In this document: piece after piece, positions 7,091-54,384 of the stretch | How the letters are laid out: each line of letters starts with the position of its first letter | Position numbering within the stretch: the first letter of the stretch is position 1 | Source: Buxus sempervirens | Taxonomy: Eukaryota; Streptophyta; Magnoliopsida; Buxales; Buxaceae | Length of the DNA: 64,000 nt | Direction of reading: 5' to 3' | Assembly (NCBI GenBank): GCA_947561395.2 | Contig: OX387190.1 | Span: forward strand, 41,900,392-41,964,391 | Made by a program: the position numbers and the translations under genes | Notes under the pieces: model-generated | Told to the model about the DNA's origin: nothing | Seen by the model: the letters and a program-made list of their open reading frames with translations, nothing else | Database searches by the model: none

Positions 7091-7748
7091 ACAAAACCAG
7101 CACCCTCGGATGTCGTGCCGACCCGCGACAATTATAAGGATGGTGTTAATGACTTGAACCTTCATTTATCATTCCAACAACTTTTATGGTAAAGTGAAAA
7201 AGTTTCGAACTAGGATACAAAGAAAAGCTGCACTATTTCAAAATTTTATTCATGATTGTAATCTCATAGAAGTCCCTTGCAAAGGAATGCGGTTCACTTG
7301 GAACAATGGTAGGGAGGGTAATGGGAAAATCAGAGAAAAAATTGATAGGGTGCTATGCTGTACTGACTGGTGTAATTTGTTCCCTAGAGCTATGTTGTGG
7401 CAAGACCCTATAGTGGGGTCTGATCATGCCCCTTTGTGTTTGAATTTAAAATGTGATATTAAAAGACATAAAGTTTTCCGTTTTGAAAAATTTTGGATCG
7501 ATGAACCTCTCTGCAGTAGCATTGTTCAGAAGAGTTGGGAGACCAGTAGGGGGAACCTGAGAATAAAAATGATGCATCTTAAAGGTTGTTTAAGTAGATG
7601 GAACAAAGAGGTGGTAGGAGACATAAACAGAAGAGTAGTAGATTACCATGATAAGATGAAAATCTGTCAAAAAGCTTTGGAGCTCCAAGATAACCCGACT
7701 CTCATTAGGGAAGAGCAACAAGCCAGAATTAATTACATTAGTGCTCTG

Positions 7749-10199
7749 TGTGCGCACCCCCTAATTTCGGTTTCGGGCCGCACGACGAGGTGCATGTAGA
7801 AATGATGCTCGCCTCGGGACTGTTTTGGTTTGGAGTCGCCACTGCCTGAGAGGTGCAGGCAGACACAAAGGGGCACCTATTCGGGTCTAATTTTCTGGTC
7901 TGCGGCTTTATTAGAGTTCTGAGTAAGTTCTCGGTTACGTCTAGGGAAGCCCGAAGACACCCTAGCCCGCCCCGTCGATTGACAGGTCCCGTGGATCTCC
8001 TTGGTCTGAGTCAACTTAGTTTTCACCCAATTCCTCAACCAGCATGCACACTTATTTGGTCTGGTGGGACCCTCTGATGGTGTGGGTCCCCTTTTTATTT
8101 GATTTTATCTTTTATTAATTAGTGAAGTAGGTCGGCCACGGGCCCTGTTGGAAGGCCCGCGGGTTGCCATGGTTGGGCCTTGGGCCCAGTTGGGTTATTG
8201 GGTAACCCTTTTTTTGGTTATTTAAATTTTATTTATTTACACTTTTATTTGGGCTTATTGGGCTTGGATTTGGCCCATTAGCCAAGGGTCAAAGGGCCTG
8301 GGCCTGTTTATTGAAAACAGGCCTAGTATGGGCCAGTCAAAAGTGGGCCCCACGAGTGGGCCAAAAAGGGGGTCTTGGTGGGCCCATGGTCCAAAGATGG
8401 GCTTAAGATAGCCCAAATTGTTTAAGGGATTGGTTCAGGCCGGTTTAGGTCGAATTAGGTTCAACCAGGCCGGAAAATTACATTTTTTAAGTTATTTACA
8501 GCTTTGACCGTATTTCATTTACGGTCCGGGCTGAACCGTAATTTTAATACGGTTCAGGTCGGACCGTAGGTTAACTACGGGCAGGCCTGGACCGCTCTGA
8601 GTATACGGGTGAGGCTTATTCTGCACTTTTGCTGCCGATTCTGCTTGGGATCAATCCGGTGAGTCTCCTGGTTGTTCTGGCAGCTTCAGTGGTACTTCAA
8701 GGTCCTCCGAATTCCTTTGTTGCCTTCAATTGGCTAAAAAGGTCTTATTTTTCTTCTCCTTTCTCCTTGGGTTCTTGGCTGAAAGATCAACCCCTTTGCT
8801 AGTTGTTCATAGTCACTTTTTAAGAGGGGAAATGGATGATTTACAGGGGATACCAAGGGCTTCAAAAGAACCTCATATTCTCCTTTCCAGAATAGTAATT
8901 AAATGGAATGAAACACTCCTTTTAAGACCCTTTTTTTTGTTTGGTGACTTTTTGTCACTATTTCATCTCTTTTCCATGATGATGATCTTTCCTAGATTAA
9001 AAATTGTCATCTCACACAATACTTCAAGATAGGTTAGTGACATAAAAAAGTTAGTAAGAAGGAAAGAAAAGTGGAATTAATTTAAAGGAAAAGAACATGC
9101 TTACAATGCAATTGTTTACTTTTACTGATTTGGTGATCCTCCAGAAGTTTGAGCAGCGCTTCCGCGTCCTCCTTATTTTGCGGGGAAGAATTGGGAAGAG
9201 CTTGGTTAAGGTGGATGGGTTCAAGACCAAGTTTAAGAGGATTTGGGCATGGTTTTGGGGTAGTTTAGGAGTATAGGGGTAATTTGGGTATCAAAAGGGT
9301 TTAGGTTTTGGGGTGGTGGTATTTGGACAGGGTGTGGCCGAGATAATCACATAGGCAGAGGGGGGAGAGGCCAAGGGATCAGGCTTGCTCAAATGAGGGG
9401 GGGTGGCATCTCTATTTATAGGCAAAATTTTCGTGCCCGTATTTGAACTACGGGCATGCCTTGCCCGTACTTTAAGTACGGGCGTGCCTTGCCCGTAATT
9501 CAATTACGGGCGAAAAACGAATATTTGCAATTATCGCAGATTCTTCCGTACGGGACGCGTGTCCCGCCACGCGTCCCCTTCTAGAAGCTTGCCCGTAGTT
9601 GAAGTACGGGCATGCCTCGCCCGTACTTCAAATACGGTCCCGCACGTTTTTAAAATGTTTGGATTTCAAACCTTTATTCAATTTGGTTTATTTAAAGATT
9701 TTTATCCGATTTTTTGATTATTTTATTATAAAATGAGATTCTCTTATTAAAATAATATTAAAAGATTATTTTTATTTATTTAATTCATCTATTCTGCTTT
9801 TTTACTGCTGTTTTGCCACATGGGCAGCTTTCTTGAAACTTCAACTGCCCATAACTTTTCCGTTCGATGTCCGATCTTAGCAAATTTGGTGTCGTTGGAA
9901 TCAGCTCGGAACATACTATCCACTGGGATTAAATTAGGCAGTTGAATTGGAGTCGAGCAAAAAGTCAACTTTCGCTTCCCCAAAAGTTTGACCGGCTCAT
10001 AACTTCCTTATCCGGACTCCGATTCTGGCAAACTTGGTTGCGTTAGAACCGTGTCGAAATGCTCTTTTCAATGAGAGGAAGTTTGATGGCCAATTCTCTT
10101 TGAATCAAAGAGTCAAATTTTGGCCCCCCCAGGGTTTGACTTTTTAATTGAAATTTTCATTTTCTTCATTTTCTGGGGTGCAAAAATCAGGTGTCTACA
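7749..10199. mobile_element. Solo LTR, probably Ty3/Gypsy Tat-like
   Basis: A 2451-bp block inserted in the LINE, beginning TGTGCGCACCCCC and ending GGTGTCTACA, flanked by the 5-bp repeat CTCTG (7744-7748 and 10200-10204). There are no internal gag or pol sequences. The length, the TGTGCGCACCCC start and the GGTGTCTACA end are usual for LTRs of the Tat lineage of Gypsy elements; orientation is therefore likely plus. Short open frames inside it are not genes. It appears whole as a solo LTR and is younger than the LINE that carries it. Confidence 0.85.
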
Positions 10200-10944: not shown

Positions 10945-13323
10945 TTGGACCTTGCGAAAGCTTATGATAGAGTGGATTGGGCCTTCATTCAAAAGTCTCT
11001 TCAGGTTTATGGCTTTAAGCAGCAGTTTATTGATCTTATTATGTTTTGCTTAACCTCTGTCTCTTATAGTGTTTTGGTCAATGGGAAACCTTGTGGGCTG
11101 ATTAACCCTAGGAGAGGCATTCGTCAAGGGGACCCGTTGTCCCCCTATTTGTTTATTCTGACCCAGCAAATGTTGTCTTTTGCCTTGGTTAAAGCTAAAC
11201 AGAGTGAGGAGATCCATGGAATAAAAGCTTCGAGGATGGCTGAGCCTATCAGCCATCTCATGTATGCGGATGACCTCATTCTATTTGGTAGAGCCTCTGT
11301 GAGAAATGCGTCCAACTTTTGTTGGGTGATCGACAGTTTTTGTGAGATGGCTGGGCACAAGATTAATAAGGAAAAATCTGAGCTTTACCTTAGTCCTAGC
11401 ATTAAGGGAAGAGATAAGGGAAATCTGATCAGGATTTTTGGGATTAGACCTACTAAAAACCCCAGTAAGTATCTTGGTATCCCCACCTTCTTAAAGGCCC
11501 CTAAAGTAAAAGACTTTCAAAATCTTATGGATAAAATCAATAAAAGATTGAAAAGTTGGAAAGCTTTGCTCCTCACACAGGCTAGGAGGCTCACCTTGAT
11601 TAACTCCGTTCTCTTGAGCACGGCTCAGTACTATATGGGGTGCCTTCTTATCCCGTGCAAGGTTGCTGATAAAATTGATGGGACTGCTAGGAGTTTCTTC
11701 TGGTACCAGGCAAATAAAAATAGGCCTATGCACTCCATATGCTGGGATAAACTCTGCCTTGCCAAGAGACATGGGGGCCTGAACATCAGAGATAGTCGCA
11801 AGTTTAATCAAGCTATGTTTGGTAAGATGACTTGGAAGTTGGCCAATGATGAAGGTAAGATATGGACTAGGCTTTTTAAAGACAAATATTTCCCAAATGA
11901 AAATTTCTTTCAAGCTAAATACAGGAAAGACTTGTCTTGGATATGGAAGCAAATGTGCCGATCGAGGGAGTGGCTGGATATGGGTAGAAGGTGGAGTGTG
12001 GCAAATGGAGAGGACATCATCTGTGATGACAGAGCATGGATGCTACAATCGCAGACCCCTAGTCAAGCAAGCACAGAGGATGACAGTCACAGGTATGTGG
12101 CCGATTTAATTGACCAACAAACTCGGACCTGGAAAGTGGAAGCATTGAGAAACAGATGGACAGAGCTTCAAGTACAACAGATCTGCAAAATCCCCATTAA
12201 CAGGTATGCTCATAGTGATAAACATGTTTGGATTGGCACTGCCTCTGGTCACTACACAGTAGCTTTTGCGTATAGAATAATTACTCAGGTTGATGATCTC
12301 TTTGAAGAGGAAAGAAAGTGGCTAACCATTTGGCGTATCCCATGCCCCCAAAAGATTAAATTCTTCTTGTGGAAGTTAATGCAAGGAGGAAACATAACCA
12401 ATGATCTTTTGCACAGTCGTATTGGAGTCCCAATTGAAATGTGTGTTTTGTGTAATAAAGAGCAAGATACTAACTTATATCTTTTTTTCAGGTGTGACTT
12501 CATAAGAGCCCTTTGGTTTGGATGTATGGGAGGCCGATTACCATTATCTGTGAACATCCAATCGTGCAAGAGCTGGGTTTTTGACCACCTGTGGAATATG
12601 GAAGAAGACAGATACAATGAAAGAGATCAGTGGCTTGCTGCTTGGGCTAATATCTGTTGGATAGTGTGGACTACTAGGAATAAAGTGTTATTTCAGAATG
12701 AGAAAGTGGATGTGAACTCATGTATTTCCCAATTTTGTTCCATGCAGGTGGACTCCAAAACTATATCAACAAAAGACGGAAAGAAGATGAAAAGAAAGAA
12801 ACAGGAAGTATTTATCAGATGGGCTAGACCAACGGGAGAGTGGAAGAAGCTTAACATTGATGGTGCGGCAAGGGGAAGTCCAGGCGATGCAGCTATAGGT
12901 GCGGTGCTAAGAGATGTTGATGGGCGTGTTATGGGAGCCGTAGCGCATAGGATTGGGAGTGCAAACGCCATTTTTGCAGAAGCTTCTGCCATGATTGAAG
13001 GCCTAAAGTTAGCTGTTGCCATGAAATGTTCTAAAATTTGCATAGAAAGTGACTCAGTTGTGATTGTGAATTGCTTGCTGGATCCGGTGAAGAGGCCATG
13101 GAGGATTGCTCACCTGCTAGACGAAGCCAGGCACCTCTGTAGCCTGTTCGTTGAAGTCAAAATTGCTCACATCTTTAGAGAGGCCAACGGCGTCGCTGAC
13201 CAGTTGGCGAATTTTGCGCTTGATTTTTTTCCATGTTTTTGGTTGTCTAATCTTCCAGCAGAGATTTCCCAGGTAGTGCTGGATGACGCTATTGGGAGAT
13301 CCTTTGCTCGGGTCGTTATGTAA
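10945..13323 (+). CDS. LINE reverse transcriptase and RNase H reading frame
   Basis: A 792-codon open frame inside the LINE. It covers the reverse transcriptase from motif A (KAYDRVDW) through YADD and the thumb, the zf-RVT region (about residues 480-540) and a C-terminal RNase H of the RVT_3 type (from about residue 635, with the DGAA, AEA and ESDS catalytic neighbourhoods). The upstream part of the same protein lies at 10205-10910 in another frame. The open length suggests recent insertion. It is not a host gene. Confidence 0.9.
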   Translation: MDLAKAYDRVDWAFIQKSLQVYGFKQQFIDLIMFCLTSVSYSVLVNGKPCGLINPRRGIRQGDPLSPYLFILTQQMLSFALVKAKQSEEIHGIKASRMAEPISHLMYADDLILFGRASVRNASNFCWVIDSFCEMAGHKINKEKSELYLSPSIKGRDKGNLIRIFGIRPTKNPSKYLGIPTFLKAPKVKDFQNLMDKINKRLKSWKALLLTQARRLTLINSVLLSTAQYYMGCLLIPCKVADKIDGTARSFFWYQANKNRPMHSICWDKLCLAKRHGGLNIRDSRKFNQAMFGKMTWKLANDEGKIWTRLFKDKYFPNENFFQAKYRKDLSWIWKQMCRSREWLDMGRRWSVANGEDIICDDRAWMLQSQTPSQASTEDDSHRYVADLIDQQTRTWKVEALRNRWTELQVQQICKIPINRYAHSDKHVWIGTASGHYTVAFAYRIITQVDDLFEEERKWLTIWRIPCPQKIKFFLWKLMQGGNITNDLLHSRIGVPIEMCVLCNKEQDTNLYLFFRCDFIRALWFGCMGGRLPLSVNIQSCKSWVFDHLWNMEEDRYNERDQWLAAWANICWIVWTTRNKVLFQNEKVDVNSCISQFCSMQVDSKTISTKDGKKMKRKKQEVFIRWARPTGEWKKLNIDGAARGSPGDAAIGAVLRDVDGRVMGAVAHRIGSANAIFAEASAMIEGLKLAVAMKCSKICIESDSVVIVNCLLDPVKRPWRIAHLLDEARHLCSLFVEVKIAHIFREANGVADQLANFALDFFPCFWLSNLPAEISQVVLDDAIGRSFARVVM

Positions 13324-17930: not shown

Positions 17931-19264
17931 TTAGATTTCTTCGGGTAACAGAAGATTGCCAAATGGCCTTTGATTATCACAGTCGAGGTTGTCGCCATAG
18001 CTCACCCCCAGCATGTCACAGTACCTCTTGTAGAACCCAATCCGGTCCTGAGCTTGCGGATTGGGTCCTTTACCGCACTCCAGACCTCCAATAATGATGT
18101 TGGTGATGACACCATAACCGGGATGGCGATCTGCACTAAGGTCGGCTCCAGATGGCATCCATCGTCCGGTGATGACGTCATGACACGAAGGCTTTGGCGA
18201 TTGCGGGGTCATCCAGAACCAGATTGCAGTCTCGAAGGAAATCACCGGGTCGGTGGCTACCAGATCCGGATTTCTTAGCAGGTCCACCCCTAAGGCTTGC
18301 CCCGCTTGCCCATAGTTGTAGTTGCTGCAAATGTAAATTAATTAAAGCCATCCTTAATATCAACATCGACAACATCATCAGGACCACCATCAAACAAGGA
18401 AAGAAAATGGGTATCAAAATGTATCACTTACTTCTTAAGCTGGATGGGCCCTCGTCCGTAATACTTCTTACCAGGAGCGCAGGGATACTGGGCACTTGGA
18501 ACACAGTAGTTCCCCGGATTGCCTAGTTGCTTTGCCCAGCAATACCCCCAGGTGTATGGTTCATCTATTGCATTTAGCCACCCCCCTACGTACATGTACA
18601 TGCATGGACATTTCATTAGCTTACATAAGCTACTTGCGTGGGATTATCAGAACAGATCATCTGTTTTGTCATTTAATTTAATCTAAGAAATTAATCAAGT
18701 CTAACCATTAGTTTCATGGGAGGTTTGAGCCAGGAAAGCAGCGATCTCCCTCTTCCGTGTGTCTGTGTCACCCGTAGTTCCAAATGCAGTAAAGGACTTG
18801 GCGGCGGTTATGAAGGCGTTGTAGGTATAGAAGCTCTCATGGCATCCATCATCACCGCTATGCTTTAACAATTCATTAAAAAGCGATTCGCTGATAAGAG
18901 AGCTCAAATCACTTTCATTAAAAAGCGATTCGCTGATAAGAGAGCTCAAATCACCGCCACGGCGACACTGACTTTGGCAACCCTTACCGCAGTAAGCCGG
19001 GGTGCTACCACAGTAACCCCACTGACTGCAACAAAGTCTACCTGGACAACGAGCCCAACCGCCCTGGCGTCCACAATGTGGGCGACACTGACTTTGGCAA
19101 CCCTCAGCGCAGTAAGCCGGGGTGCTACCACAGTAACCCCACCTACTGCAACAAAGTCTACCTGGACAACGAGCCCAACGGCCCTGGCGTCCACATTGTG
19201 CAGCCAAAGCTGCCCCTAGCAAAGAGCACAGGTAAAAGAAAACTAAGACCTCAAACCACTTCAT
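17931..19264 (-). CDS. Class I chitinase-like protein, two hevein domains
   Basis: Three exons: 19264-18706, 18585-18432 and 18324-17931, all with GT-AG borders, giving 368 residues. Layout: signal peptide 1-21 (ending GAALA), hevein domains about 22-62 and 63-102 (eight Cys each, [15 protein letters not shown] type), a linker in which the 14-residue [15 protein letters not shown] segment is duplicated (perfect 42-bp repeat), then a GH19 domain to the end. The C-terminal NLLLPEEI after QRPFG resembles the short vacuolar propeptides of class I chitinases. Catalytic Glu184 in HETNG is kept. Alignment by eye to barley chitinase puts Gln206 at the second catalytic glutamate (E89), Lys237 at S120 and Ile316 at N199; Glu320 and Arg332 are kept. 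Full hydrolytic activity is therefore doubtful. Architecture equals the nettle agglutinin precursor. Confidence 0.93.
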
Positions 19265-19319: not shown

Positions 19320-19327
19320 TTTATATA
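19320..19327 (-). promoter_or_regulatory. TATA box of the two-hevein chitinase gene
   Basis: Minus-strand TATATAAA, 56 bp upstream of the start codon at 19264, within a flank (about 19265-19460) almost identical to that of the second chitinase gene. Confidence 0.65.
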
Positions 19328-19689
19328 GGGGTGAGCTCAGGCCAGGTGGGGAGTTGTCTTGAAAGAAAATAATTAACAAAATAAAAGAGAGAGGCACGGG
19401 ATGTGGTTATTGGTTAGGCACAAATGCAAGATACCGTCAACCAATCAGCTTTTCTCACCTCTAATTTCCAACCAATTTTGATCGTATTCGTGTGGGACGT
19501 TTATCTACAATCTTAACCGGAGTCTGTGGCCTTCTATTAGGATCATGTCATGTGCATTGTGAGGAGACGACGTCGTTTTTACGGTGTTTGCTACGGCATT
19601 TTTACGGCGTGCATAAAGAAACGACGCGTGGACATTCAATGAATGACTAACGACAAAATGATTTTTTCAAGAAAGACTTTTTTATTTTT

Positions 19690-21057: not shown

Positions 21058-21733
21058 TATGATTTTTTGAGTTTTTAAAGATATTTTCTCAAACGGAAAA
21101 CGTTTGACGTCCGTTGGAAAAATCATTTCTGACGTCATAGCCTGTACAAACACATGAGTTGGAGCATCTCCATCATAACCCACGGCCACAAGAACTGAAG
21201 TCTCCACGCGTCGTTTCCTTATGAATGCCGTAAAAACGCTGATGAGGATTTCGGTTCGCATTGTGAATGGCATATTTACAAATTTTTAAATAATCCTCTG
21301 AAAAAACTACAAATGAGGTTCTGGATAAAGGTACTCCGGATTTGGACTGATTTCCGAGTCTTCGAAACGAGGAAGGCGTGAATTGCCAGGTGGTTGGTTG
21401 CCTTGAAAAGAAAATAAATTAAGGAATAAAAGACAGGGACAAGGGGTGTGATTACTGGTTAGGCACAAAGGCGAGACACCATCAATCGGTTAGCTTTTCT
21501 CTCTTCTAATTTCCGAGTTTCGACGTATGATGAATTGAAAACGACGAAGGCGTCCATTGCCTCTTAAGTATCTTTAGGAGTAGTTTGAGCAAGGGGTGCT
21601 AATGTTGTAAACAAATTAAAATTGAATCCTCAGCCGTCCAATTAATTTTCTAGGATTTCGTTGTCGGTGACCATGTCCTACCTACTAGCATCCTACCTTC
21701 GTGGGCAAAGCGCTTCCCATCCTGGGGCATTAC

Positions 21734-24904: not shown

Positions 24905-25643
24905 CTCAATGCAACATCTACTTTCTCCATTTCACTGATATCTGCTTGCATTCCTTCGCAAGCGATACGGTTTTTGAGCATCAATTTGGAAACTAGAGAA
25001 CAACGAATTGGCTTGGACTGTGCCTTTGGTCCAGATGCAAAGGACAGAAGCGATCCAAAAATATCAAGAGTGATTTGTTCTATTTGATTCAGTGCATGAA
25101 CTATCGCCACGAGGCTATTATCTCTCTCCAACAGATCCGAGAAATCGCGTTTGTTCTCTACTTTCCTCAGATCCGCAACACACTTGCGCATCTCCTTCAT
25201 CATCCTCTTTCTAAGACCAAGTACTTGTTAAACTCATTTGCCTGACGGAGTTCCGCACATCTTCTTCTTCGGGAAGCAGACTGGAGATCTTGCACGCGTT
25301 CCCTCATCTGTGACAAGACATCTCTAGCAGTACTGCCCGCATCGACCAACCTGAGAGATCCATTCAAGATCTCATCTACACATTTCTCTTGTCGTTCATG
25401 GGCGAGGATTTGTTGGGTGAGAGGCAACTGAAGCAATGCATCAACACGATCATACAAGTCCCTGAGACCACTCATATTATGAGATATTGCTGAGGATGAG
25501 GATGAAGACGAGGGAGTGGCTTTTAAAGATCTCAGATAATGCAACTGCTCCTCTACTTGGAGGGTGGCTGGATGAGATTTTGAAGGTAAACTAATAGAGC
25601 GGGCATGTTCAGGAACTCTGGAGCTAGCAGTTGAAACAGCCAT
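24905..25643 (-). pseudogene. DUF241 gene, copy 3 (broken and 3' truncated)
   Basis: The N-terminus is intact from 25643 (MAVSTASSRVPEHARSISLP) as far as ASRRRRCAELRQANEFNKYL. The frame then changes at about 25200-25215 and continues as MMKEMRKCVADLRKVENKRD to ISEMEKVDVALRA. Homology stops at about 24905, so the last 50 or so residues, including the terminal RRLIKTRVSLLN block, are gone and unrelated sequence follows. A TATA-like TTTATATATAGG lies about 90 bp upstream. It pairs with copy 1 in sequence and in position within the unit. Confidence 0.85.
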
Positions 25644-26711: not shown

Positions 26712-27049
26712 TGAAAGACTAACAGAAATGATTAGAATTAATCTTCCTTACCGTTCTCAAAGATACGGTAGTATATTTAACAAAGTAATAAGATTTGTTA
26801 CAGTTGTTACAAAACTGATGAGTCACCTAATTCTTAGGAACTCTTCTAAAAACAAATTAAACAAACTCTTAGGATAAGCTATCTTTTAGAGACTGTTATC
26901 TAGAAGATAGATACAAGAAGTTACAGCAGTTTTATCCTAATCTAAGCTGGTCCTTGAACGACCTCTTTTGAATCTGATCGTTGGATATATTTTGAATCTG
27001 ATCATGATCTTTGGAGCTGATCATTGGTTGATCAGTTTTATCATTAATA
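26712..27049 (-). repeat. 3' LTR of the Copia element
   Basis: On the plus strand it begins TGAAAGACTAACAG and ends ATCATTAATA. It is followed inward by CCCCCCCGC, the complement of the polypurine tract. Confidence 0.93.
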
Positions 27050-30000
27050 CCCCCCCGCAAGCGTAGCGTACCATCTAGAACAGCAAGCTTGGAACACAGC
27101 AAATTGAACCGTGGACCAGAGAGAGGTTTAGTTAGCACATCTGCTAACTGATCAACTGAAGAGACAAACCGAATATGAAGATTTTTCTTAGCAATTCTGT
27201 CACGAATGAAATGTTGATCGATTTCAATATGCTTCGTCCGAGCATGTAATACTGGATTAACCGCTAAATATGTTGCTCCGATATTATCACACCAAAGTGT
27301 GGGAGCCTGAGGTAATGGAAGACGAAGTTCAGAAAGAAGTGACTCGATCCAAATTAATTCAGCTGTGGCCAGTGCAAGGCCTCGATATTCGGATTCAGTA
27401 CTGGAGCGAGCTATAGTGTGTTGTTTGTTGGAAGTCCACGAAATTGGGTTTGGACCGAGGAAAACACAATAGCCACTTGTAGACTTACGATCATCAGGGC
27501 ATCCGGCCCAATCAGCATCAGAAAAACAGTGAAGAGAGAAGTTATCCGATTTTCGGATAAAAAGTCCTGAGCTGACCATATATTTCAAGTAACGAAGTAT
27601 ACGTTTGACCGCACTCCAATGAACGTCAATAGGAGAGTGCATAAATTGACATACTTTGTTCACCGAGAACGCTATATCCGGTCGAGTAAAGGATAAATAT
27701 TGCAATGCTCCTACAACACTTCGATATTCAGTAGGATTTGGGAGCAAAGTACCATCTAGCCGAGATAGAATTTTTCCAGTTGCCATAGGAGTACGACAAG
27801 GTTTTGCACCATCCATCTTTGTGCGGTGTAATAAGTCTACAACATATTTGGATTGAGATAAAAACAATCCAGTGGGGGAACGAGTAGCACATATACCCAA
27901 GAAGTATGAAAGTTCACCTAGATCTTTCAAAGTAAACTCAATACTTAGTTGATGAATGAAGGATGAAATGAGCACCGAATTTGAACCAGTGATGATTATA
28001 TCATCCACATAGACTAAAATATATGTAGTTGCCTGAGACGTGTGCTGTATGAATAGTGAAGAGTCGGATTTGGACCCAAGAAAACCAAGTTCTAGAAGGA
28101 ATGTACTCAAGCGATGAAACCATGCACGAGGAGCCTGTTTAAGACCATACAATGCTTTGTGAAGTTTGCACACGTGAGTAGGGTGCAGTGGATCGATAAA
28201 CCCAGGTGGTTGGGTCATAAAAACATTCTCCTTCAGATTGCCATGAAGAAAGGCATTGGACACATCCAATTGCCGAATAGACCAAGTCTTAGATATAGCA
28301 AGAGAAAGAACAGTTCTGATTGTAGCAGGTTTAACAACAAGGCTAAAAGTTTCACCATAATCTATACCTGGTTGCTGATGAAATCCCTTGGCAACTAGCC
28401 GAGTTTTGTATCTGTCAATACTCCCATCAGATTTCTGTTTGAGTTTGAATACCCATTTACAACCCACGAGATTCATGTGAGATGAAGAAGGCACAAGTGA
28501 CCAAGTATGATTTGCTAGAAGAGCATTGTATTCGGTATCCATAGCACTGCGCCAGTTTGGATCTTTACTTGCTTGAGAGAAGCAAGTTGGTTCTTGAAAA
28601 ATGGAGGACGAATGAGCAAGATGTGCTTGAGGCAAAGGATGCCGAGTAGCCCAAAATAACTTTGGCCGTCGAGTACCATCACGGGTACGGGTAACCATAG
28701 GATGCCGGGATAGAATATGTGGTGATGTTGAAGGTGAAGTATTGAGATCCACAATCAAATTGATGCCAGTAGGGGTCGAGCAATGTTGTGGAGACAAAAC
28801 GGGAGCAGCAGCGGCATTGGTATTGGAAGACGATGCCATAGGAGATGTTGCCGGTGGCATAGGGGATGGTGACACGGATGAGGAAGGTGCTGCCGATATA
28901 GAGGGTGTTAAAGCCGTAGTGGGTGTTGAAGTAGGAGAGGCCCATTGTTCCATAATTTGAGATGGAACCATAATATCAATACCAGCACATGGAGAGGTGG
29001 GTGAGGCAGGAGCTGAGCGTTGCTTGGCAAAGACAAAATCATCATCATTAAATACAACATGTCGAGAGACATATAACCTTCCAGATTTGAGATCAAGACA
29101 GCGGTATCCACGATGAGATGCACTATAGCCAAGAAAAATACATGGTGTAGATCGGAACTCGAACTTCCGATTGTGATAGGGCCGGAGATAAGGAAAGCAA
29201 GTACAACCGAAGGTGCATAACAAGTGATAGTCAGGTAGCTTGTGAAAGAGCATTTCATAGGGACTTTTATTGCCAAGAACCGGTGTGGGGAGACGGTTGA
29301 TGAGGTACACGGCGGTTTGAAAAGCATCTGCCTAGTACCGAAGTGGCATGGAAGCTTGAGCAAGCAAAGTAAGTCCAGTGTCGACTATGTGTCGATGTTT
29401 GCGTTCGGCAGACCCATTTTGCTCATGGATATGTGGACACGCAAGGCGATGTTGAATACCATGTTGGTTTAAATAAGTGCTAACAGATCTGTACTCACCT
29501 CCCCAATCTGAATGTAAGGCTTTAATGGGTCTGTCAAACCATTTTTCCACATGTTTCTAAAACTGAAGAAATACAGAGAAGACATCTGATTTTTTTTCAA
29601 GTAAGAAAATCCAGGTAAACTTGCTGTAGTCATCAAGAAAATGAACATAAAAACGACTACCATTAGACGACAAGATGGGAGCGGGTCCCCAAACATCCGA
29701 ATAAATTAAATCTAAGGGTCCAGATGACCGAAATAAGGACCGAAAGAAAGGAAGCTTATGACATTTTCCTAACTGACAGGAAGAGCAAAAGACAGACTCT
29801 TTATTAGGCCTATGCACAGGCAGATTATTTTTCGACAAAATATAAGTAACTGTGCCAACTGCAGGATGTTCAAGACGACGATGCCAGGTACTGAAGTACG
29901 TCTTTTCACCAACTAGTGCTTGCTTATCTCCGAACGAACTAGATGACGGAATTTGGTATAAACCGTTCCTAACTTGTCCTTGTAGAAGAACCTTCCCCGA

Positions 30001-31365
30001 TTGACGATCCTTAACCAAGCAATGAGAGTTAGTAAACTCAAAAATAACGTCATTATCAGACGTAAACTGATGAACTGATAAGAGATTCTTTTTAATAGAC
30101 AGCACATGGAGAATATCATTCAGAACAAATCCGTTATGGAGCAAAGAAGACCCGATATGAGTGATAGCCAAACCTGAACCGTTTCCAACCCGAACTTGAT
30201 CACGTCCATGATAATCAGAATGAAGAGATAAATTGTTCAGATCTGATGTAATGTGATTCGTAGCTCCTGAATCAGGATACCAGGCTGACTCAGTATAAGA
30301 AGGAGAGCTGGACTGATCAAGTAGGGCAACAAGAGCAGATGGATCATCATTTTGAGTGACACGCTCATAGCGACTGTAGCAACGGGAGGCAGAGTGTCCA
30401 GGTTTGTCACATATCTGACATATAAATGACTGATTGAACGAAGAAGATTGTGTGGCTGCAAACTGACCATTATAGGATGATCGGTTGTTCTGGTTTGGAA
30501 AACTACGACCACGTCCGCGACCTCTTCCTCGACGATGCTGATTTGGGAAGGATCGTGGAGAGTAGTCCCTATTTTGAGACTGATGTATATTACGGATGGC
30601 GGTATTAGCAATAAATGAAGGTTCTTCAACTGAGATGGAATTATTGTGAGTCAATCGGATTTCTTGGTTACATAGAAGATCATGTAACACATCAGTAGTA
30701 ATAGCATCCGTGCGAGTTGTGGTCGAGGTCACAAATGACTCATACGCAGTGCCTAATCCACCAAGAATATGAAGAACGAGGTCTTCATCAGACACTGGTT
30801 GAGCAGCTGCAGCAAGACTATCAGCAATGCCTTTAGCCTTTTGGAGGTAATCGGGTATAGTCATTGAACCTTTCGTCAAGGTTTGTAATTGCAGCCGTAG
30901 TTGCATTATTCGTGCTCGGGAATGGGAGGAAAACATGCGCTCAAGAGCATGCCAGACGTCCTTAGCACTTGACAACCCAACGACATGAGCGAGAACACTT
31001 TCACTCAATGAAGATATAATCCAGCTAAGCAGTAGCTGATCTTTCTTCTGGTAAGCCACAAAATCTGGGTTGATGTTGGTGGAATCAACGCCATTTTCAT
31101 TGGAGAGAAACTTTGGTGGACATTCCACTTCTCCATTCACAATGCCAATGAGCTCATAGAGTCTCAAAATGGGCATAAACTGGGATTGCCATAGCAGATA
31201 ATTATGACGATCTAACTTGAGAGAGATGAAATGGTGAATGTTGCCAATAGATGGAATGGTATTGACTGGTGCAATTTCAGCATTGGTAACGTTGACACTG
31301 GATGCAGAATCCATTAGAAGAGAGAAAAAAAATATCTGACTTACGTCAATAGAGCTCTGATACCA

Positions 31366-31706
31366 TGAAAGACTAAACGAAATGATGATTAGAATTAATC
31401 TTCCTTACCGTTCTCAAAGATACGGTAGTATATTTAACAAAGTAATAAGATTTGTTACGGTTGTTACAAAACTGATGAGTCACCTAATTCTTAGGAACTC
31501 TTCTAAAAACAAATTAAACAAACTCTTAGGATAAGCTATCTTTTAGGGACTGTTATCTAGAAGATAGATACAAGAAGTTACAGCAGTTTTATCCTAATCT
31601 AAGCTGGTCCTTGAACGACCTCTTTTGAATCTGATCGTTGGATATATTTTGAATCTGATCATGATCTTTGGAGCTGATCATTGGTTGATCAGTTTTATCA
31701 TTAATA
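31366..31706 (-). repeat. 5' LTR of the Copia element
   Basis: On the plus strand it begins TGAAAGACTAAACG and ends ATCATTAATA. The inner neighbour GCTCTGATACCA is the complement of the primer-binding site. Confidence 0.93.
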
Positions 31707-31711
31707 CTATG

Positions 31712-32838: not shown

Positions 32839-33798
32839 CTATAGGAAAAGGACGTTTTGGACACGACTAAGTGAATCTGATGGACTCTCCAGCCAGTGAT
32901 TGAGAACGTTGAGAAGGGAAACTCTTGTTTTGATCAAACGCCTAAACACACACTCCATGCCCATCTCAAGATCTCGGATGCCCAACTCTATTTTCTCCAA
33001 TTCCATTTGCAAAAGTTTCATGTCCACAACTTCGTTGCCTTTGCGAGACTTGTGATTGACAAACACCTTCAACCTAAGATCTACTTTCTCCATCTCACTG
33101 ATATCTGCTTGCGTTCCTTCACAAGCTACACGGTTTTTGAGCATCAATTTGGAAACGAAAGACCAACTAATTGGCTTGAACTGTCCCTTTGGTCCGGATA
33201 CAAAGGACAGAAGGGATCCAAAAATGTCAAGAGTGATTTGTTCTACTTGATACAGTGCATGAACTATTGCCACAAGGCTATTATTATCTCTATCCAAAAG
33301 ATCACAGAAATCACGTTTGTTTTCTAGCTTCCTCATTTCTGCAACACATATGCGCATCTCCTTGATCATCCTCTTTCTAAAGAAGATGTACTTTTTGACC
33401 TCATTTGTCTGGTCGAGTTCTGAACATCTTCTTCGGCAAGCGGACTGGAGATCTTGCACATGTTCCCTCAACTGTGACAAGACATCTCTAGCAGTGCTGC
33501 CCGCATCAACCAACCTGAGAGATCCATTCAAGATCTCATCCACACAATTCTCTTGTCGTTCACGGGAGAGGATTTGTTGGGTGAGAGGCAACTGAAGCAA
33601 CGCATCAACACGATCATACAAGTCCCTGAGACCACTCAAATTATGAGATAATATTGCTGAGGACGAGGGAGTGACCTCTAAAGCACTTAGATGATGCAAC
33701 TGCTCCACTATTTCGAGGGTTGCTGGATGAGATGTTGAGGGTAAACTAATAGAGCGAGAATGCTTAGGAACTCTGGGGGTAGCTGGAGAAACAGCCAT
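32839..33798 (-). CDS. DUF241 protein, copy 4 (stop codon lost)
   Basis: The start is taken at 33798, where MAVSPATPRVPKHSRSISLP matches the family; the frame runs open 65 codons further upstream, but that part lies in the promoter and 5' leader. The protein follows copies 2 and 7 throughout to RRLIKTRVSLLNVLNH. There the usual TAG has become TGG, so translation would continue 18 residues (WLESPSDSLSRVQNVLFL) to a stop at 32839. Predicted length is 319 instead of 301 residues. All conserved family blocks are present. A TATA box lies at 33885-33892. It may be functional with a longer tail, or be an early pseudogene. Confidence 0.85.
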   Translation of the reverse strand: MAVSPATPRVPKHSRSISLPSTSHPATLEIVEQLHHLSALEVTPSSSAILSHNLSGLRDLYDRVDALLQLPLTQQILSRERQENCVDEILNGSLRLVDAGSTARDVLSQLREHVQDLQSACRRRCSELDQTNEVKKYIFFRKRMIKEMRICVAEMRKLENKRDFCDLLDRDNNSLVAIVHALYQVEQITLDIFGSLLSFVSGPKGQFKPISWSFVSKLMLKNRVACEGTQADISEMEKVDLRLKVFVNHKSRKGNEVVDMKLLQMELEKIELGIRDLEMGMECVFRRLIKTRVSLLNVLNHWLESPSDSLSRVQNVLFL

Positions 33799-33884
33799 CT
33801 TTTCTTTTGTGGAAGAATGCCTTACAGCAACACAATATAGAATTCGGTCTTGAAAGATATATAGTTGCCCTAGCTTTGTGTACC

Positions 33885-33892
33885 TTATATAT
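33885..33892 (-). promoter_or_regulatory. TATA box of DUF241 copy 4
   Basis: Minus-strand ATATATAAGG, about 90 bp upstream of the start codon at 33798, in the same place as in the sister copies. Confidence 0.55.
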
Positions 33893-33899
33893 GGAGATC

Positions 33900-34690
33900 G
33901 AGAGCTAGAAATTAGAACGTACGATGAAAGAAACATAAGGAATCTCATCCTGTATTTGTCTTCGGTTGGCCATGTGGGGTTTTCCATGTCCAACGATATC
34001 TATTAATTGTTTTCTTAGATATACAAATAGATACCTGTATGAAGTGATTATATAACGTGGAATCATTGTAAAGTTATGGAAGTGATTATAAAAATACACA
34101 CGAGTGGAATGCAATCTCCCTGCTCCAACCATGCCCCCAAACGGATGGACAAGAAGCACATATTTTTTTGCTAAATTTGGCCTATATATGAGATCCCAGG
34201 TGATCTCTCTCTATCTGTAACGTAATGCTCATAAATATGATCAAAGGATAGCGTCGCTTGAGAATTAGACACTTGGAATCTTCATAGCATTGAATTAAAT
34301 TTAAGTATACCATCGTAACCATCCTCGTGTAAGGCTAGTAGGGGATCGAGAGGGATTTTGTTTATTTTCGCTGATGCCAGATAGTCCTCCCGTAATAATT
34401 TTGATTCCATCGACAGGTTGCCACTCTTACATCAATTTTAAAAGAGGGAAAAAGGGGGTGGTGCATGGGAATCCAAGTTGCGCCTAGCTACAATATTAGA
34501 AAGATCCTTAATGTCCACCCTGCAGGAGGCGCGCGTAGGTGCATGATCTGCATGGGGTCACACGAGGTTGTGCACGTGCGTGTGTCTATGTATAGATATA
34601 TGTTTGCATGGGTGGCATATATTTCAGCAGATATATCTCCGAGGCATAGCTTTTAAAACTTGAATTGATCATGTGCTTCTGGAAACTGGT
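33900..34690. other. Duplicated spacer upstream of DUF241 copy 4
   Basis: Near-identical to 49.33-50.12 kb. The match ends at GGTTGATGTAGGG (about 34.69 kb), where the CACTA-like repeat begins. There is no gene. Confidence 0.7.
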
Positions 34691-35262: not shown

Positions 35263-36171
35263 CTAGTGATTGAGGACGTTAAGCAGGGAGACTCTTGTTT
35301 TGATCAAACGCCTAAACAAACACCCCATGCCCATCTCAAGATCTCGAATGCTCAACTCCATTTTCTCCAATTCCATTTGCAAACTTTTCATGTTCACAAC
35401 TTCGTTGCCTTTGCAAGACTTGTGATTGACAAAGGCCTTCAATGCAGCATCTACTTTCTACATCTCACTGGTATCTGCTTGCGTTCCTGCACAAGCTACA
35501 CGGTTTTTGAGCATCAACTTGGAAACGAAAGACCAACCACTTGGCTTGGACGGCCCCTTTGGTCCAGATACAAAGGACAGAAGGGATCCAAAAATATCGA
35601 AAGTGATTTGTTCTACTTGATTCAGTGCATGAACTATCGCCACAAGGCTATTATTATCTCTGTCCAAAAGATCACAGAAAGCGCGTTTGTTCTCTAGCCT
35701 CCTCATCTCTGAAACACATCTGCAAATCTCCTTGATCATCTTCCTTCTAACGATGATCTACTTTTTGACCTCATTTGTCTGGTCGAGTTCTGAACATCTT
35801 CTTCTTCGGAAAGCAGACGAGAGATCTTGCACATGTTCCCTCAACTGTGACAAGATATCTCTAGCAATGCTGCCCACATCAACCAACCTGAGAGATCCAT
35901 TCAAGATCTCATCCACACAATTCTGTTGTCGTTCATGGGAAAGGATTTGTTGGGTGAGAGGCAACTGAAGCAACGCATCAACACGATCATACAAGTCACT
36001 GAGACCACTCAAATTATGAGATAATATTGCTGAGGACAAGGGAGTGGCCTCTAAAGCACTTAGATGATGCAACTGCTCCAATATTTCGAGGGTTGCTGGA
36101 TGAGATGTTGAGGGTAAACTAATAGAGCGAGCATGCTTAGGAACTCTGGGGGTAGCTGGAGAAACAGCCAT
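35263..36171 (-). pseudogene. DUF241 gene, copy 5 (two nonsense codons)
   Basis: The start at 36171 (MAVSPATPRVPKHARSISLP) and the end are those of an intact gene, and the sequence is colinear with copy 2. A TAG replaces the tyrosine codon after NEVKK (about 35757), and a second TAG replaces glutamate in TSEMEKVD (about 35458). Apart from these the coding sequence is well kept, so inactivation is recent. Its N-terminal half closely matches that of copy 7 (ILEQLHHLSALEATP, ILSHERQQNCVDE), pointing to sequence exchange between the two. Confidence 0.88.
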
Positions 36172-36429
36172 CTTCTCTTTTGTGGAAGAATGCCTTACAA
36201 GCAACACAATATAGAATTCGATCTTGAAAGATATATAGTTGCCCTAGCTTTGTGTACCTTATATATAGAGAGAGCTAGAACGTACGATGAAAGAAACACA
36301 AGAAACACAATTAAAGTGGAATCATTGTGAAGTTATTGATATAATTACCACATCATAATACACACGAGTGGAATGCAATCTCCCCGCTGCAACCATGTCC
36401 CCAAACGGCTGGACAAGAAGCACATATTT

Positions 36430-36929: not shown

Positions 36930-37010
36930 AACGGTCATGGCCATTACACTGGCTTTTTTGCTGCCAAAGGAGCTCCTAGCATGGAACACATGGACAACAG
37001 AACCAATACC
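36930..37010 (-). pseudogene. Chitinase signal-peptide scrap
   Basis: TTGCTGCCAAAGGAGCTCC and GCATGGAACACATGGACAAC repeat the signal-peptide piece seen at 7050-7100 and 36555-36630. Nothing else of the gene is present. It indicates a further local duplication. Confidence 0.5.
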
Positions 37011-37098
37011 CTATACCACCTCATCTTTTGGCTTTGTGATTTGCTTCCTTTCAAGGAGGAGAGGGTGATATGGGGGATAGGGGGGAGACCAGGGCAGG

Positions 37099-41709: not shown

Positions 41710-43241
41710 TTAGATTTCTTCGGGTAACAGAAGATTGCCAAATGGCCTTTGATCATCACAGTCGAGGTTGTCGCCATAGCTCACCCCCAGCATGTCACAG
41801 TACCTCTTGTAGAACCCAATCCGGTCCTGAGCTTGCGGATTGGGTCCTTTACCGCACTCCAGACCTCCAATAATGATGTTGGTGATGACACCATAACCGG
41901 GATGGCGACCTGCACTAAGGTTGGCTCCAGATGGCATCCATTGTCCGGTGATGACGTCATGACACGAAGGCTTTGGCGATTGCGGGGTCATCCAGAACCA
42001 GATCGCAGTCTTGAAGGAAACCATCGGATCGGTGGCTACCAAATCCGGATTTCTTAGCAGGTCCACCCCTAAGGCTTGCCCCGCTTGCCCATAGTTGTAG
42101 TTGCTGCAAATGTAAATTAAGTAAAGCCATCCTTAAGATCAACAGCGACAACATCATCAGGACCACCATCAAACAAGGAAAGAAAATGGGTATCAAAATG
42201 TATCACTTACTTCTTAAGCTGGATGGGCCCTCGTCCGTAATACTTTTTACCAGGAGCGCAGGGATACTGGGCACTTGGAACACAGTAGTTCCCCGGATTG
42301 CCTAGTTGCTTTGCCCAGCAATACCCCCAGGTGTATGGTTCATCTGTTGCAGTTAGCCACCCCCCTACGTACATGTACATGCATGGACATTTCATTAGCT
42401 TACATAAGCTAGTTGCGTGGGGTTATCATAACATATCATCTGTTTTGTCATTTAATTTAATCTAAGAAATTAATCAAGTCTAACCATTAGTTTCATGGGA
42501 GGTTTGAGCCAAGAAAGCAGCGATCTCCCTCTTACGTGTGTCTGTGTCACCCGTAGTTCCAAACACAGTAAAGGACTTGGCGGCGGTTATGAAGGCGTTG
42601 TAGGTATAGAAGCTCTCATGGCATCCATCATCACCGCTATGCTTTAACATTTCATTAAAAAGCGATTCGCTGATAAAAGCGCTCAAATCACCACCACGGC
42701 TACACTGACTTTGGCAACCCTTACCGCAGTAAGCCGAGGTGCTACCACAGTAACCCCATTGACTGCAACAAAGTCCATCTGGACAAAGAGCAAAACCAGC
42801 CTGGCGTCCACAGTGTGGGCGACACTGACTTTGGCAACCCTCAGCGCAGTAAGCCGGTGTGCTACCACAGTAACCCCACTGACTGCAACAAAGTCCACCT
42901 GGACAAGGAGCCCAACCGCCTTGCCGTCCACAATGTGGGCGACACTGACTTTGGCAACCCTCAGCGCAGTAATCCGGGGTGCTACCACAGAAACCCCACT
43001 TACTGCAACAAAGTTTACCTGGACAAGGAGCCCAACCGCCCTGCCGTCCACAATGTGGGTGACACTGACTTTGGCAACCCTCAGCGCAGTAATCCGGGGT
43101 GCTACCACAGACACCCCACTTACTACAACAAAGTCCACCTGGACAAAGTTTCCCACCAGCCTGGCTTCCACACTGTGCAGCCAAAGCTGCTCCTAGCAAA
43201 GAGCACATGTACAAGAAAACTAAGACCTCAAACCACTTCAT
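41710..43241 (-). CDS. Chitinase-like protein with four hevein domains and a GH19 domain
   Basis: Exons 43241-42485, 42364-42211 and 42103-41710 with GT-AG borders encode 434 residues. The start is the ATG at 43241, the equivalent of that in the sister gene; the frame is open a few codons further but without an ATG. Layout: signal peptide 1-21, hevein domains about 22-62, 63-102, 103-142 and 143-182, each with eight Cys, then linker and GH19 domain. In the aromatic sugar-contact position after WG, domain 1 has Val, domain 2 Phe, domains 3 and 4 Tyr. Glu250 (HETNG) is kept; Gln272, Lys303 and Ile382 stand where active GH19 enzymes have Glu, Ser and Asn. C-terminus NLLLPEEI suggests vacuolar delivery. 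Likely a chitin-binding defence protein with weak or no hydrolysis. Introns and exons 2-3 are almost identical to the sister gene. Confidence 0.93.
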
Positions 43242-43296: not shown

Positions 43297-43304
43297 TATA
43301 TATA
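43297..43304 (-). promoter_or_regulatory. TATA box of the four-hevein chitinase gene
   Basis: TATATATA, about 55 bp upstream of the start codon at 43241, immediately before the tandem promoter repeats. Confidence 0.65.
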
Positions 43305-43835
43305 GGGGTGAGCTCAGGCCAGGTGGTGGGTTGCCTTGAAAGAAAATAATTAACAAATAAAAGAGAGAGGCACGGGATGTGGTTACTGGTTTGGCACAAA
43401 TGCGAGACACTATCGATCAATCAGCTTTTTAATATAGGGGTGAGATTAGGCCAGGTGGTGGGTTGCCTTGAAAGAAAATAAATTAACAAATAAAAGAGAG
43501 AGGCACGGGATGTGGTTACTGGTTTGGCACAAATGCGAGACACCATCGATCAATCAGCATTTTAGTACAGGGGTGAGCTCAGGCAAGGTGGTGGGTTGCC
43601 TTGAAAGAAAATAAATTAACAAATAAAAGAGAGAGGCACGCGATGTGGTTACTGGCTTGGCACAAATGCGAGACACCATGGATCAATCAGCTTTTTAGTA
43701 TAGGGGTGAGCTCAAGCCAAAGTGGTGGGTTGCCTTGAAAGAAAATAAATTAACAAATAAAAGAGAGAGGCACGGGATGTGGTTACTGGTTAGGCACAAA
43801 CGCGAGACACCATCCATCAATTAGCTTTTCTCTCC
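43305..43835 (-). promoter_or_regulatory. Upstream region amplified as four 133-bp tandem units
   Basis: Units begin at about 43305, 43437, 43570 and 43703 (GGGGTGAGCTCAGGCC or close variants). Each contains GGTGGGTTGCCTTGAAAG, AAATAAAAGAGAGAGGCACG, GATGTGGTTACTGG, GGCACAAATGCGAGACACC and ATCAATCAGC. The two-hevein gene has only one unit next to its TATA box and a second, separated by the inverted-repeat insertion, at about 21388-21510. Repeated cis elements would be expected to change expression, but I cannot name a specific binding site. Confidence 0.8.
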
Positions 43836-48316: not shown

Positions 48317-49222
48317 CTAGTGATTGAGAACGTTGAGAAGGGAAACTCTTGTTTTGATCAAACGCCTAAACACACACTCCATGCCCATCTCAAGATCTCG
48401 GATGCCCAACTCTATTTTCTCCAATTCCATTTGCAAAAGTTTCATGTCCACAACTTCGTTGCCTTTGCGAGACTTGTGATTGACAAACGCCTTCAACCTA
48501 AGATCTACTTTCTCCATCTCACTGATATCTGCTTGCGTTCCTTCACAAGCTACACGGTTTTTGAGCATCAATTTGGAAACGAAAGACCAACTAATTGGCT
48601 TGAACTGTCCCTTTGGTCCGGATACAAAGGACAGAAGGGATCCAAAAATGTCAAGAGTGATTTGTTCTACTTGATACAGTGCATGAACTATTGCCACAAG
48701 GCTATTATTATCTCTATCCAAAAGATCACAGAAATCACGTTTGTTTTCTAGCTTCCTCATTTCTGCAACACATATGCGCATCTCCTTGATCATCCTCTTT
48801 CTAAAGAAGATGTACTTTTTGACCTCATTTGTCTGGTCGAGTTCTGAACATCTTCTTCGGCAAGCGGACTGGAGATCTTGCACATGTTCCCTCAACTGTG
48901 ACAAGACATCTCTAGCAGTGCTGCCCGCATCAACCAACCTGAGAGATCCATTCAAGATCTCATCCACACAATTCTGTTGTCGTTCATGGGAGAGGATTTG
49001 TTGGGTGAGAGGCAACTGAAGCAACGCATCAACACGATCATACAAGTCACTGAGACCACTCAAATTATGAGATAATATTGCTGAGGACGAGGGAGTGGCC
49101 TCTAAAGCACTTAGATGATGCAACTGCTCCAATATTTCGAGGGTTGCTGGATGAGATGTTGAGGGTAAACTAATAGAGCGAGCATGCTTAGGAACTCTGG
49201 GGGTAGCTGGAGAAACAGCCAT
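48317..49222 (-). CDS. DUF241 protein, copy 7 (intact, mosaic)
   Basis: Single-exon gene of 301 residues from MAVSPATPRVPKHARSISLP to RRLIKTRVSLLNVLNH. The frame is open 12 codons upstream of the chosen start, which lies in the leader; the chosen ATG agrees with the other copies. All family blocks are present. The C-terminal two thirds match copy 4 (KGQFKPISWSF, EKVDLRLKAF, LEKIELGIRD), while the N-terminal third matches copy 5 (ILEQLHHL, SGLSDLYDRV, SHERQQNCVDE), so it is a mosaic. A TATA box lies at 49310-49318. The function is unknown. Confidence 0.9.
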   Translation of the reverse strand: MAVSPATPRVPKHARSISLPSTSHPATLEILEQLHHLSALEATPSSSAILSHNLSGLSDLYDRVDALLQLPLTQQILSHERQQNCVDEILNGSLRLVDAGSTARDVLSQLREHVQDLQSACRRRCSELDQTNEVKKYIFFRKRMIKEMRICVAEMRKLENKRDFCDLLDRDNNSLVAIVHALYQVEQITLDIFGSLLSFVSGPKGQFKPISWSFVSKLMLKNRVACEGTQADISEMEKVDLRLKAFVNHKSRKGNEVVDMKLLQMELEKIELGIRDLEMGMECVFRRLIKTRVSLLNVLNH

Positions 49223-49309
49223 CTTCTCTTTTGTGGAAGAATGCCTTACAAGCAACACAATATAGAATTCGGTCTTGAAAGATATATAGTTGCCCTAGCT
49301 TTGTGTACC

Positions 49310-52527: not shown

Positions 52528-52647
52528 ACTAACAAATGAGAGAGATTAGAGAATTATACACAGTCCCTCTGCCGGCAGAGAGATTGCATCGATTTCGAGT
52601 TGCCGAAGAACAGAGAAAGGCTGCCTGAGATCAGTCGAATCCAAACA

Positions 52648-54384
52648 ATGTCTTCCACAAGCAATCCTCTGCTCTCCTCGCCCTTCTTTGGTACTCCTCT
52701 CCATCTTTCCCCCCCAACACCTAAAACAACCAGCTCATCTTTTCCTCTGCCCTTCCTCTCTAGAAGAAAATTTTCGAGTACCCAATCCCTTTTAAATAAA
52801 AACTCTAATACAAAGAACATCAAAACCATCCCTTCCCAGGCTACTTTGGCTGCCCTAATTTTCTCTTCGATTACCCAGAGCACACCCTCAGCCATAGCCA
52901 TAGACAACATATCTTCTCCTCCTCCTGTAATTCAAGCTGAAGCCACCAAACCCAGCTCCCCAAATGCCTCTCCCTTCTCTCAGAATCTTCTCCTCACCGC
53001 CCCAAAGCCGCAGGCAGAGTCCACCTCTGATCTCCCCGAAGGTAGTCAGTGGAGATACAGCGAATTCCTTAATGCGGTTAAGAAAGGGAAGGTCGAACGT
53101 GTCCGGTTCAGCAAAGACGGCAGTACCCTCCAGCTCACCGCCATCGATGGCCGCCGAGCCGCCGTTACCGTCCCCAATGACCCGGACCTCATTGACATCC
53201 TGGCCATGAATGGTGTTGATATCTCCGTCTCAGAGGGAGAGTCGGGTAATGGTCTCTTCAATTTCATTGGCAATCTCCTCTTCCCTTTCCTTGCCTTCGC
53301 CGGATTGTTCTTCCTGTTCCGCCGTGCCCAGGGAGGCCCGGGTGGACCCGGTGGCCTCGGAGGTCCCATGGATTTCGGCCGGTCGAAATCCAAATTCCAG
53401 GAGGTTCCCGAGACTGGCAACACCTTTGCTGATGTTGCCGGTGCCGACCAGGCGAAATTGGAGTTGCAGGAGGTTGTTGATTTTCTCAAGAACCCCGACA
53501 AGTATACCGCTCTTGGAGCGAAAATTCCAAAGGGTTGTCTTCTTGTGGGACCTCCCGGAACTGGAAAGACCCTCTTGGCTCGGGCGGTCGCTGGAGAGGC
53601 TGGAGTGCCATTCTTCTCATGTGCAGCGTCGGAATTCGTGGAGTTGTTTGTTGGGGTTGGAGCGTCGAGGGTTCGGGATCTGTTTGAGAAAGCAAAGTCG
53701 AAAGCCCCCTGTATTGTGTTCATTGATGAGATCGATGCTGTGGGTAGGCAGCGTGGGGCGGGGCTTGGAGGAGGTAATGATGAGAGGGAGCAGACTATTA
53801 ACCAGCTCTTGACGGAGATGGATGGATTCTCCGGCAACAGTGGTGTCATAGTGCTTGCAGCGACTAACCGGCCAGATGTCCTAGATTCGGCCCTACTAAG
53901 ACCCGGGAGGTTTGATAGGCAGGTCATGGTGGACAGGCCTGATGTCGCTGGTAGAGTTAAGATTCTTCAGGTTAGCTCAAAGCTCAATACAATTCCCTTC
54001 AATTGCATCTTCCATTTTATCAAATATCAGTTCTTATTAAGGGAAAACTCTGGGAGATTACCACAAATCCAGTTGATGATCACACACTAAGCTCTTTTCA
54101 TTCTTATTAGGTACTGTAAAGGTACTTTACCACCTCACTTCAAATTGCCTATTTGTTAAAATAACACTTCACCTACACCTACATACAGCCGACTCATTTA
54201 CAGAAGAAAAGAAACTCACACACAAATGAACACACTGATAGATAGCCAATGCATAGATGTTTTGTGAAGTTACTGCTGCCAAATCTAACGTAGGTTTCTT
54301 TAATTCAAGGCATTGCCCGTGATAACAAGCAAATAATCTTTGTTTGTACTAAAACTGATAAGATTTTATCATAACATAAAAAAG

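Follow-up and report, generated by a model that had tools for sequence, protein, structure and literature searches.

The window analysed here, a 64,000-nucleotide stretch of the Buxus sempervirens genome (contig OX387190.1), carries two intact chitinase-like genes on the minus strand, referred to as gene A and gene B, whose products combine tandem hevein domains with a glycoside hydrolase family 19 (GH19) domain of altered active site. Gene A extends from an ATG at 43241 to a stop codon ending at 41710 and yields, upon spliced translation, a frame of 434 residues that is continuous across three exons; the two introns (120 and 107 bp) both have GT-AG borders. Its product begins with a signal-like peptide, followed by four hevein domains and a GH19 domain, and closes with a short tail. 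Pfam assigns PF00187 (Chitin_bind_1) to four stretches (5.2e-50) and PF00182 (Glyco_hydro_19) to residues 190-419 (model positions 2-232 of 232; 2e-122), corresponding to the class I plant chitinase architecture of an N-terminal hevein part followed by GH19. The polypeptide passes through the usual GH19 terminus RPFG into the tail NLLLPEEI, and a vacuolar location of the product is plausible. An initial annotation, made from the sequence alone, had placed the gene at 41710-43241 and described four hevein domains joined to a GH19 domain; the Pfam matches and the single 434-residue frame bear out both statements.

42485..43241, minus strand: gene A exon 1, signal-like peptide, four hevein domains and GH19 start up to the general-acid motif (splicing and Pfam)
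42211..42364, minus strand: gene A exon 2, holding Gln272 and Lys303 (splicing and alignment)
41710..42103, minus strand: gene A exon 3, holding Ile382, the tail NLLLPEEI and the stop (splicing and alignment)
43176..43241, minus strand: putative signal peptide of gene A, residues 1-22 (by eye from the translation, no predictor)
43300..43829, no strand assigned: 133-bp tandem repeat, four copies upstream of gene A, adjoining a TATA-like box (43297)

The intact paralogue gene B (19264-17931, minus strand) codes for 368 residues with two hevein domains and carries the same Gln, Lys and Ile in its GH19 part. Between the GH19 parts of the two genes, 18 of 732 bases and 11 of 244 residues are different, and open frames and GT-AG splice sites are retained in both. 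Genes A and B lie within duplicated blocks, in which pieces at ~17.3-19.5 kb and 21.5-26.7 kb match pieces at 41.2-47.1 kb. The initial annotation, whose observation turned out to be somewhat stronger than stated, had overlooked this two-hevein paralogue as well as the four-copy upstream repeat.

18706..19264, minus strand: gene B exon 1, signal-like peptide, two hevein domains and GH19 start
18872-18954, minus strand: 42-bp tandem duplication in gene B exon 1 (tandem repeat search)
18432..18585, minus strand: gene B exon 2, Gln and Lys as in gene A
17931..18324, minus strand: gene B exon 3, Ile and tail as in gene A
19323-19453: 133-bp repeat, one copy upstream of gene B

Short tandem duplications are frequent across the locus, as seen in the 120-bp hevein unit, the 133-bp upstream unit and the 42-bp unit of gene B. 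An additional, more diverged copy of the 133-bp repeat was found at 21385-21498, and the upstream copies (four before gene A, one before gene B) could affect expression. Truncated chitinase-like gene pieces with a signal peptide similar to that of genes A and B are located at ~6938-7106 and 36956-37024 (minus strand); the former includes the start of a GH19 domain (7027-6938), and no hevein domain was seen in the translations of these relics.

The hevein array

The hevein part of gene A is a tandem repeat of 120 bp (40 residues) in 4.0 copies with 89% matches. DNA similarity between hevein units ranges from 84.7 to 95.5%, and amino-acid changes between them outnumber silent ones, in numbers too small for any claim of selection. 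Each of the six units of genes A and B contains eight cysteines. In the nettle lectin, the equivalents of hevein Ser19, Trp21, Trp23 and Tyr30 are described as contacting N-acetylglucosamine (GlcNAc) (PMC3662789); the residues at these four positions in gene A are listed in this order:

43062..43172, minus strand: hevein unit 1, residues 24-60, S, W, V, Y (third position non-aromatic)
42942..43052, minus strand: hevein unit 2, residues 64-100, S, W, F, Y
42822..42932, minus strand: hevein unit 3, residues 104-140, S, W, Y, Y
42702..42812, minus strand: hevein unit 4, residues 144-180, S, W, Y, Y

As expected for lectin-type hevein domains, the equivalents of Ser19, Trp21 and Tyr30 are thus present in four of four units, and position 23 is aromatic in three of four. 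Unit 1, with its valine, probably binds sugar more weakly than the others. Both units of gene B have S, W, Y and Y. Among solved structures, the best match of the gene A hevein region is wheat germ agglutinin (6.9e-33), which likewise has four tandem hevein domains; this hololectin consists of hevein domains only, whereas in gene A a GH19 domain follows.

The GH19 active site

Alignment of gene A with Basic endochitinase C (pdb-code: 4dwx), which we take to be from rye, gave 160 identities among 231 aligned residues and a single gap distant from the substituted sites. Gln272, Lys303 and Ile382 stand opposite chain positions 90, 121 and 200, which were taken as the barley-type residues Glu89, Ser120 and Asn199, the chain being offset by one. 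The alignment confirms the three substitutions proposed in the initial annotation, which had left room for another glutamate in the general-base position: this position carries Gln, and no acidic residue adjoins it. Of the two catalytic glutamates of class I chitinases, both copies therefore keep Glu67, retained in gene A as Glu250, and have Gln for Glu89; at position 120, where Ser or Thr is expected in this class, both have Lys. The equivalents of Glu67, Trp72, Gln118, Asn124, Lys165, Glu203 and Arg215 are kept in genes A and B. Altered catalytic residues within a GH19 domain are characteristic of GH19 chitinase-like lectins.

42492..42494, minus strand: Glu250 (GAA), equivalent of Glu67, retained (alignment, invariant columns)
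42306..42308, minus strand: Gln272 (CAA) in place of the general base Glu89 (alignment, invariant columns)
42213..42215, minus strand: Lys303 (AAG) in place of the water-holding Ser120 (alignment, invariant columns)
41869..41871, minus strand: Ile382 (ATT) in place of Asn199 (alignment, invariant columns)

An alternative splice restoring Ser at 303 was considered and rejected: codon 303 (AAG) lies entirely upstream of the exon 2 donor, as read by eye, and Lys303 is therefore independent of acceptor choice. A sequencing or reading error is likewise unlikely, because the same three substitutions recur in gene B.

Bacterial and viral-contig GH19 genes served as controls for the invariance of the substituted positions. 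The full gene A protein retrieved one viral-contig locus (of two pattern-matching stretches) from a viral collection and eight loci (of 13 such stretches) from a prokaryote collection; they are 39-44% identical in the best segment, and in nine of nine the matched query residues fall in the GH19 part (residue 181 onwards). A GH19 family search in 148 genomes of one bacterial phylum gave a match in 15, above the family cut-off in 13, and in none of 14 control genomes. Invariant columns were defined from three plant-type controls (4dwx, 3cql, presumably from papaya, and Anc5) and 11 bacterial or viral-contig genes, each column having to be covered by a letter in at least 10 of the 11. Locus L010 was omitted because it represents the gene already included as L002; L013-L025, which are 13 short endolysin-type or partial GH19-like matches, were excluded by an E-value filter of 1e-30, and the protein of pdb-code 4mst was kept out as itself lacking one catalytic Glu. 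In both genes A and B, 23 of the resulting 26 columns are unchanged and just three (Glu89, Ser120 and Asn199) are substituted, while of the 209 positions outside these columns 57 differ between gene A and Anc5 (a gap counted as a difference). Position 120 is Ser in all four plant-type controls and all 12 chitinase-type loci (L001-L012, L010 repeating L002). The chance that three changes among 26 columns fall on three named sites is 0.0004, a conditional value as the sites were chosen in the initial annotation because they are altered; simple counting with only the independently known sites Glu89 and Ser120 gives 24/2600, about 0.009. In the excluded matches L013-L025, the Glu89 column is covered in seven of 13 (R, T, Q, D, N, H and a gap) and the Ser120 column holds Thr in 11, Val in one and Ala in one.

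An active-site role of Asn199 is assumed here; no passage on it was found in a literature search that included two papers looked through for this role. Glu89 is described as the general base and Ser120 as the residue positioning the catalytic water (PMC2976769). In a class I chitinase of Drosera adelae, exchange of the second catalytic glutamate (Glu167) for Gln is reported to give a completely inactive enzyme of almost identical fold (PMC12667207); to judge from spacing and motif, Glu167 would be the counterpart of Glu89. On the strength of these mutant and mechanistic data from other chitinases, we strongly infer that gene A has lost hydrolytic activity.

Because both copies carry the same three substitutions, the altered site should predate the duplication, unless gene conversion between A and B, the alternative explanation of the shared site, spread it later. 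The active site thus appears to have been lost before the two copies came to differ in hevein number, a difference that arose after the duplication either by gain in A or by loss in B. The initial annotation had proposed a chitinase turning into a lectin, with gain of sugar-binding modules alongside loss of the catalytic site. The first part remains the best explanation, given the Gln at the base position and the changes in otherwise invariant columns; the coupling is not supported, as gene B combines two hevein domains with the same altered site. An order in which catalysis is lost first and valency changes afterwards is testable, since neighbouring copies share the site and differ in hevein number (two and four).

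Relatives, function and rival explanations

Class I chitinases and plant hevein lectins have modules in common, and BjCHI1 of Brassica is a class I-like chitinase with two chitin-binding domains. The comparison with this protein, as with MLX56, the nettle agglutinin precursor and CsChi24 below, concerns domain make-up and, where stated, reported activity. The protein of pdb-code 4mst, presumably from the rubber tree and labelled as a class I chitinase, shares 71.4% identity with gene A over 234 residues and is likewise a GH19 protein with a lost catalytic glutamate; in it the general acid is replaced (Glu67 to Ala) while Glu89, Ser120 and Asn199 are intact, whereas gene A is the reverse.

MLX56 (mulatexin) of mulberry latex resembles gene A in having a signal peptide, more than one hevein domain and a C-terminal chitinase-like domain; strong chitin binding, no chitinase activity and toxicity to caterpillars are reported for it (PMC5572373; architecture and chitin binding without chitinase activity also in PMC2827359). 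An extensin-like stretch separates its two hevein domains, whereas the four of gene A follow each other in direct tandem without such a stretch. The precursor of the nettle (Urtica dioica) agglutinin (UDA), whose product is a lectin, also places a GH19-like domain behind tandem hevein domains, of which it has two where gene A has four, and contains a 19-residue spacer; in vitro chitinase activity of its GH19 domain has been reported, and extensively purified native UDA was reported inactive (PMC11768490). Cucumber CsChi24, a class I-like chitinase gene, has two chitin-binding domains versus four (PMC6861899). The relatives named in the initial annotation were thus correct for nettle and incomplete, as MLX56, reported inactive, and CsChi24 are two-hevein GH19 proteins as well. 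A survey of five plant genomes describes hevein/GH19 and hevein/hevein/GH19 arrangements, with four tandem heveins in rice sequences only (PMC5485960). A GH19 database paper covering 22,461 sequences states that some plant sequences have lost or duplicated CBM18, and the parts of its main text drawn on here mention no four-module plant protein (PMC8547705). No four-hevein GH19 protein was found among the matches listed in a search of literature titles and abstract beginnings, which did not cover plant proteomes and does not allow a claim to a first. As far as the sequence can be read, what is new here is a hevein count above that of the described relatives found, together with the loss of three residues on the water side of the active site.

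We consider it likely that gene A descends from a class I chitinase and now encodes a multivalent chitin-binding defence lectin whose GH19 domain no longer hydrolyses chitin. The product would be secreted or vacuolar, and its four hevein domains, three or four of them with a usable sugar site, would bind fungal or insect chitin or GlcNAc polymers with high avidity. The GH19 domain would keep its conserved framework, the general acid and most of the tested cleft residues, and is predicted not to cut because the residues activating and holding the hydrolytic water are lost; it may hold the chitin chain as a further binding site or merely support folding and targeting. A more specific and more tentative version assumes that, in a four-hevein GH19 chimerolectin, selection did away with the water-activating side of the active site and kept the acid and the cleft. 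Such a protein might clamp chitin without cutting it, at up to five binding sites if the GH19 cleft is counted, and its hevein number might vary between neighbouring copies to tune valency. Intermediates between enzyme and multivalent lectin are few, and the A/B locus would add such a case; the change of the base, the water-holding Ser and Asn199 with the acid kept would be a natural counterpart of laboratory mutants. If binding is as expected, the protein would serve as a natural reagent for chitin with as many hevein domains as wheat germ agglutinin.

Several observations weigh against the non-hydrolysing lectin. The GH19 parts of A and B differ by 12 nonsynonymous changes at 571 sites, six synonymous at 161 and seven intron changes at 227; comparison of the nonsynonymous with the pooled synonymous and intron changes (13/388) gives p = 0.30 (Fisher), so that purifying selection is not demonstrated. 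L019, one of the 13 distant partial GH19-like matches, also has Gln in the Glu89 column, in a weak alignment. An AlphaFold model of the gene A hevein part alone (residues 22-181, no alignment) is poor, with a mean predicted local distance difference test (pLDDT) score of 51.5, and adds nothing. The MLX56-like mulberry proteins LA-a and LA-b are reported to have small but significant chitinase activity (PMC2827359), and by analogy the "inactive" status of such proteins can depend on the substrate.

Among the alternatives, a lectin precursor of the nettle agglutinin type overlaps with the preferred explanation, as the product is a lectin in both, and is possible without being favoured. The GH19 domain would be cleaved off as a propeptide to leave a lectin of ~16 kDa with four hevein domains like wheat germ agglutinin, a role that would explain an active site free to change. 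The size agrees, the four-hevein part of gene A comprising 158 residues with a calculated mass of 16.3 kDa, and nettle agglutinin is described as processed to 86 residues with only its two chitin-binding domains (PMC11768490). However, the link between the end of hevein unit 4 (residue 180) and the start of the GH19 match (residue 190) is shorter than the 19-residue nettle spacer, and the 23 of 26 GH19 invariants kept are more than a discarded propeptide seems to need.

Neutral drift of duplicated copies, in which an inactive chitinase becomes a pseudogene and its hevein array is altered by chance unequal crossing over, appears unlikely. It is consistent with the unrejected neutrality between A and B, the local tandem duplications and the truncated relics of related genes. 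However, two intact frames with their splice sites are kept, a weak point alone at about 3% divergence, and the changes are limited to three of 26 invariant columns, where random decay would be expected to strike structural invariants too.

We regard it as improbable that gene A still encodes a chitinase with another carboxylate, or Gln itself, as a weak base. The retained equivalents of Glu67, Glu203 and Arg215 and the small activity of LA-a and LA-b would fit this, but the single Glu-to-Gln exchange is fully inactivating in Drosera and here Ser120 and Asn199 are changed too. A non-hydrolysing transferase, with the acid kept and the base and water-holding Ser replaced, is hardly credible, as known glycosynthase reactions need an artificial activated donor and we know of no natural donor for such an enzyme. 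The same two positions, Glu89 and Ser120, were mutated jointly in rye GH19 chitinase to give a glycosynthase using an activated fluoride donor; the parts of that report considered here name neither Gln nor Lys as a working replacement (PMC10536575).

Other features of the window

BPS1-like genes are repeated on the minus strand at 2741-3472, 5324-6229, 25200-25643, 32839-33993, 35758-36207 and 48317-49258. Two copies (5324-6229 and 48317-49258) were tested and match PF03087, the other four were assigned by DNA similarity, and some of the six lie within the blocks duplicated with the chitinase genes. The frame at 7194-7799 gave no Pfam match, and a LINE-like (long interspersed nuclear element) reverse transcriptase frame at 10945-13323 (plus strand) matches RVT_1, zf-RVT and RVT_3. 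The start of an FtsH-like protease gene at 52600-54090 (plus strand) has a strong AAA match and an FtsH_ext match below the curated cut-off; at a guess, the protein is located in the chloroplast. A Copia-type retrotransposon occupies 26712-31707, and its end repeats (26712-27050 and 31366-31707) are 98% identical, which suggests a perhaps fairly young element.
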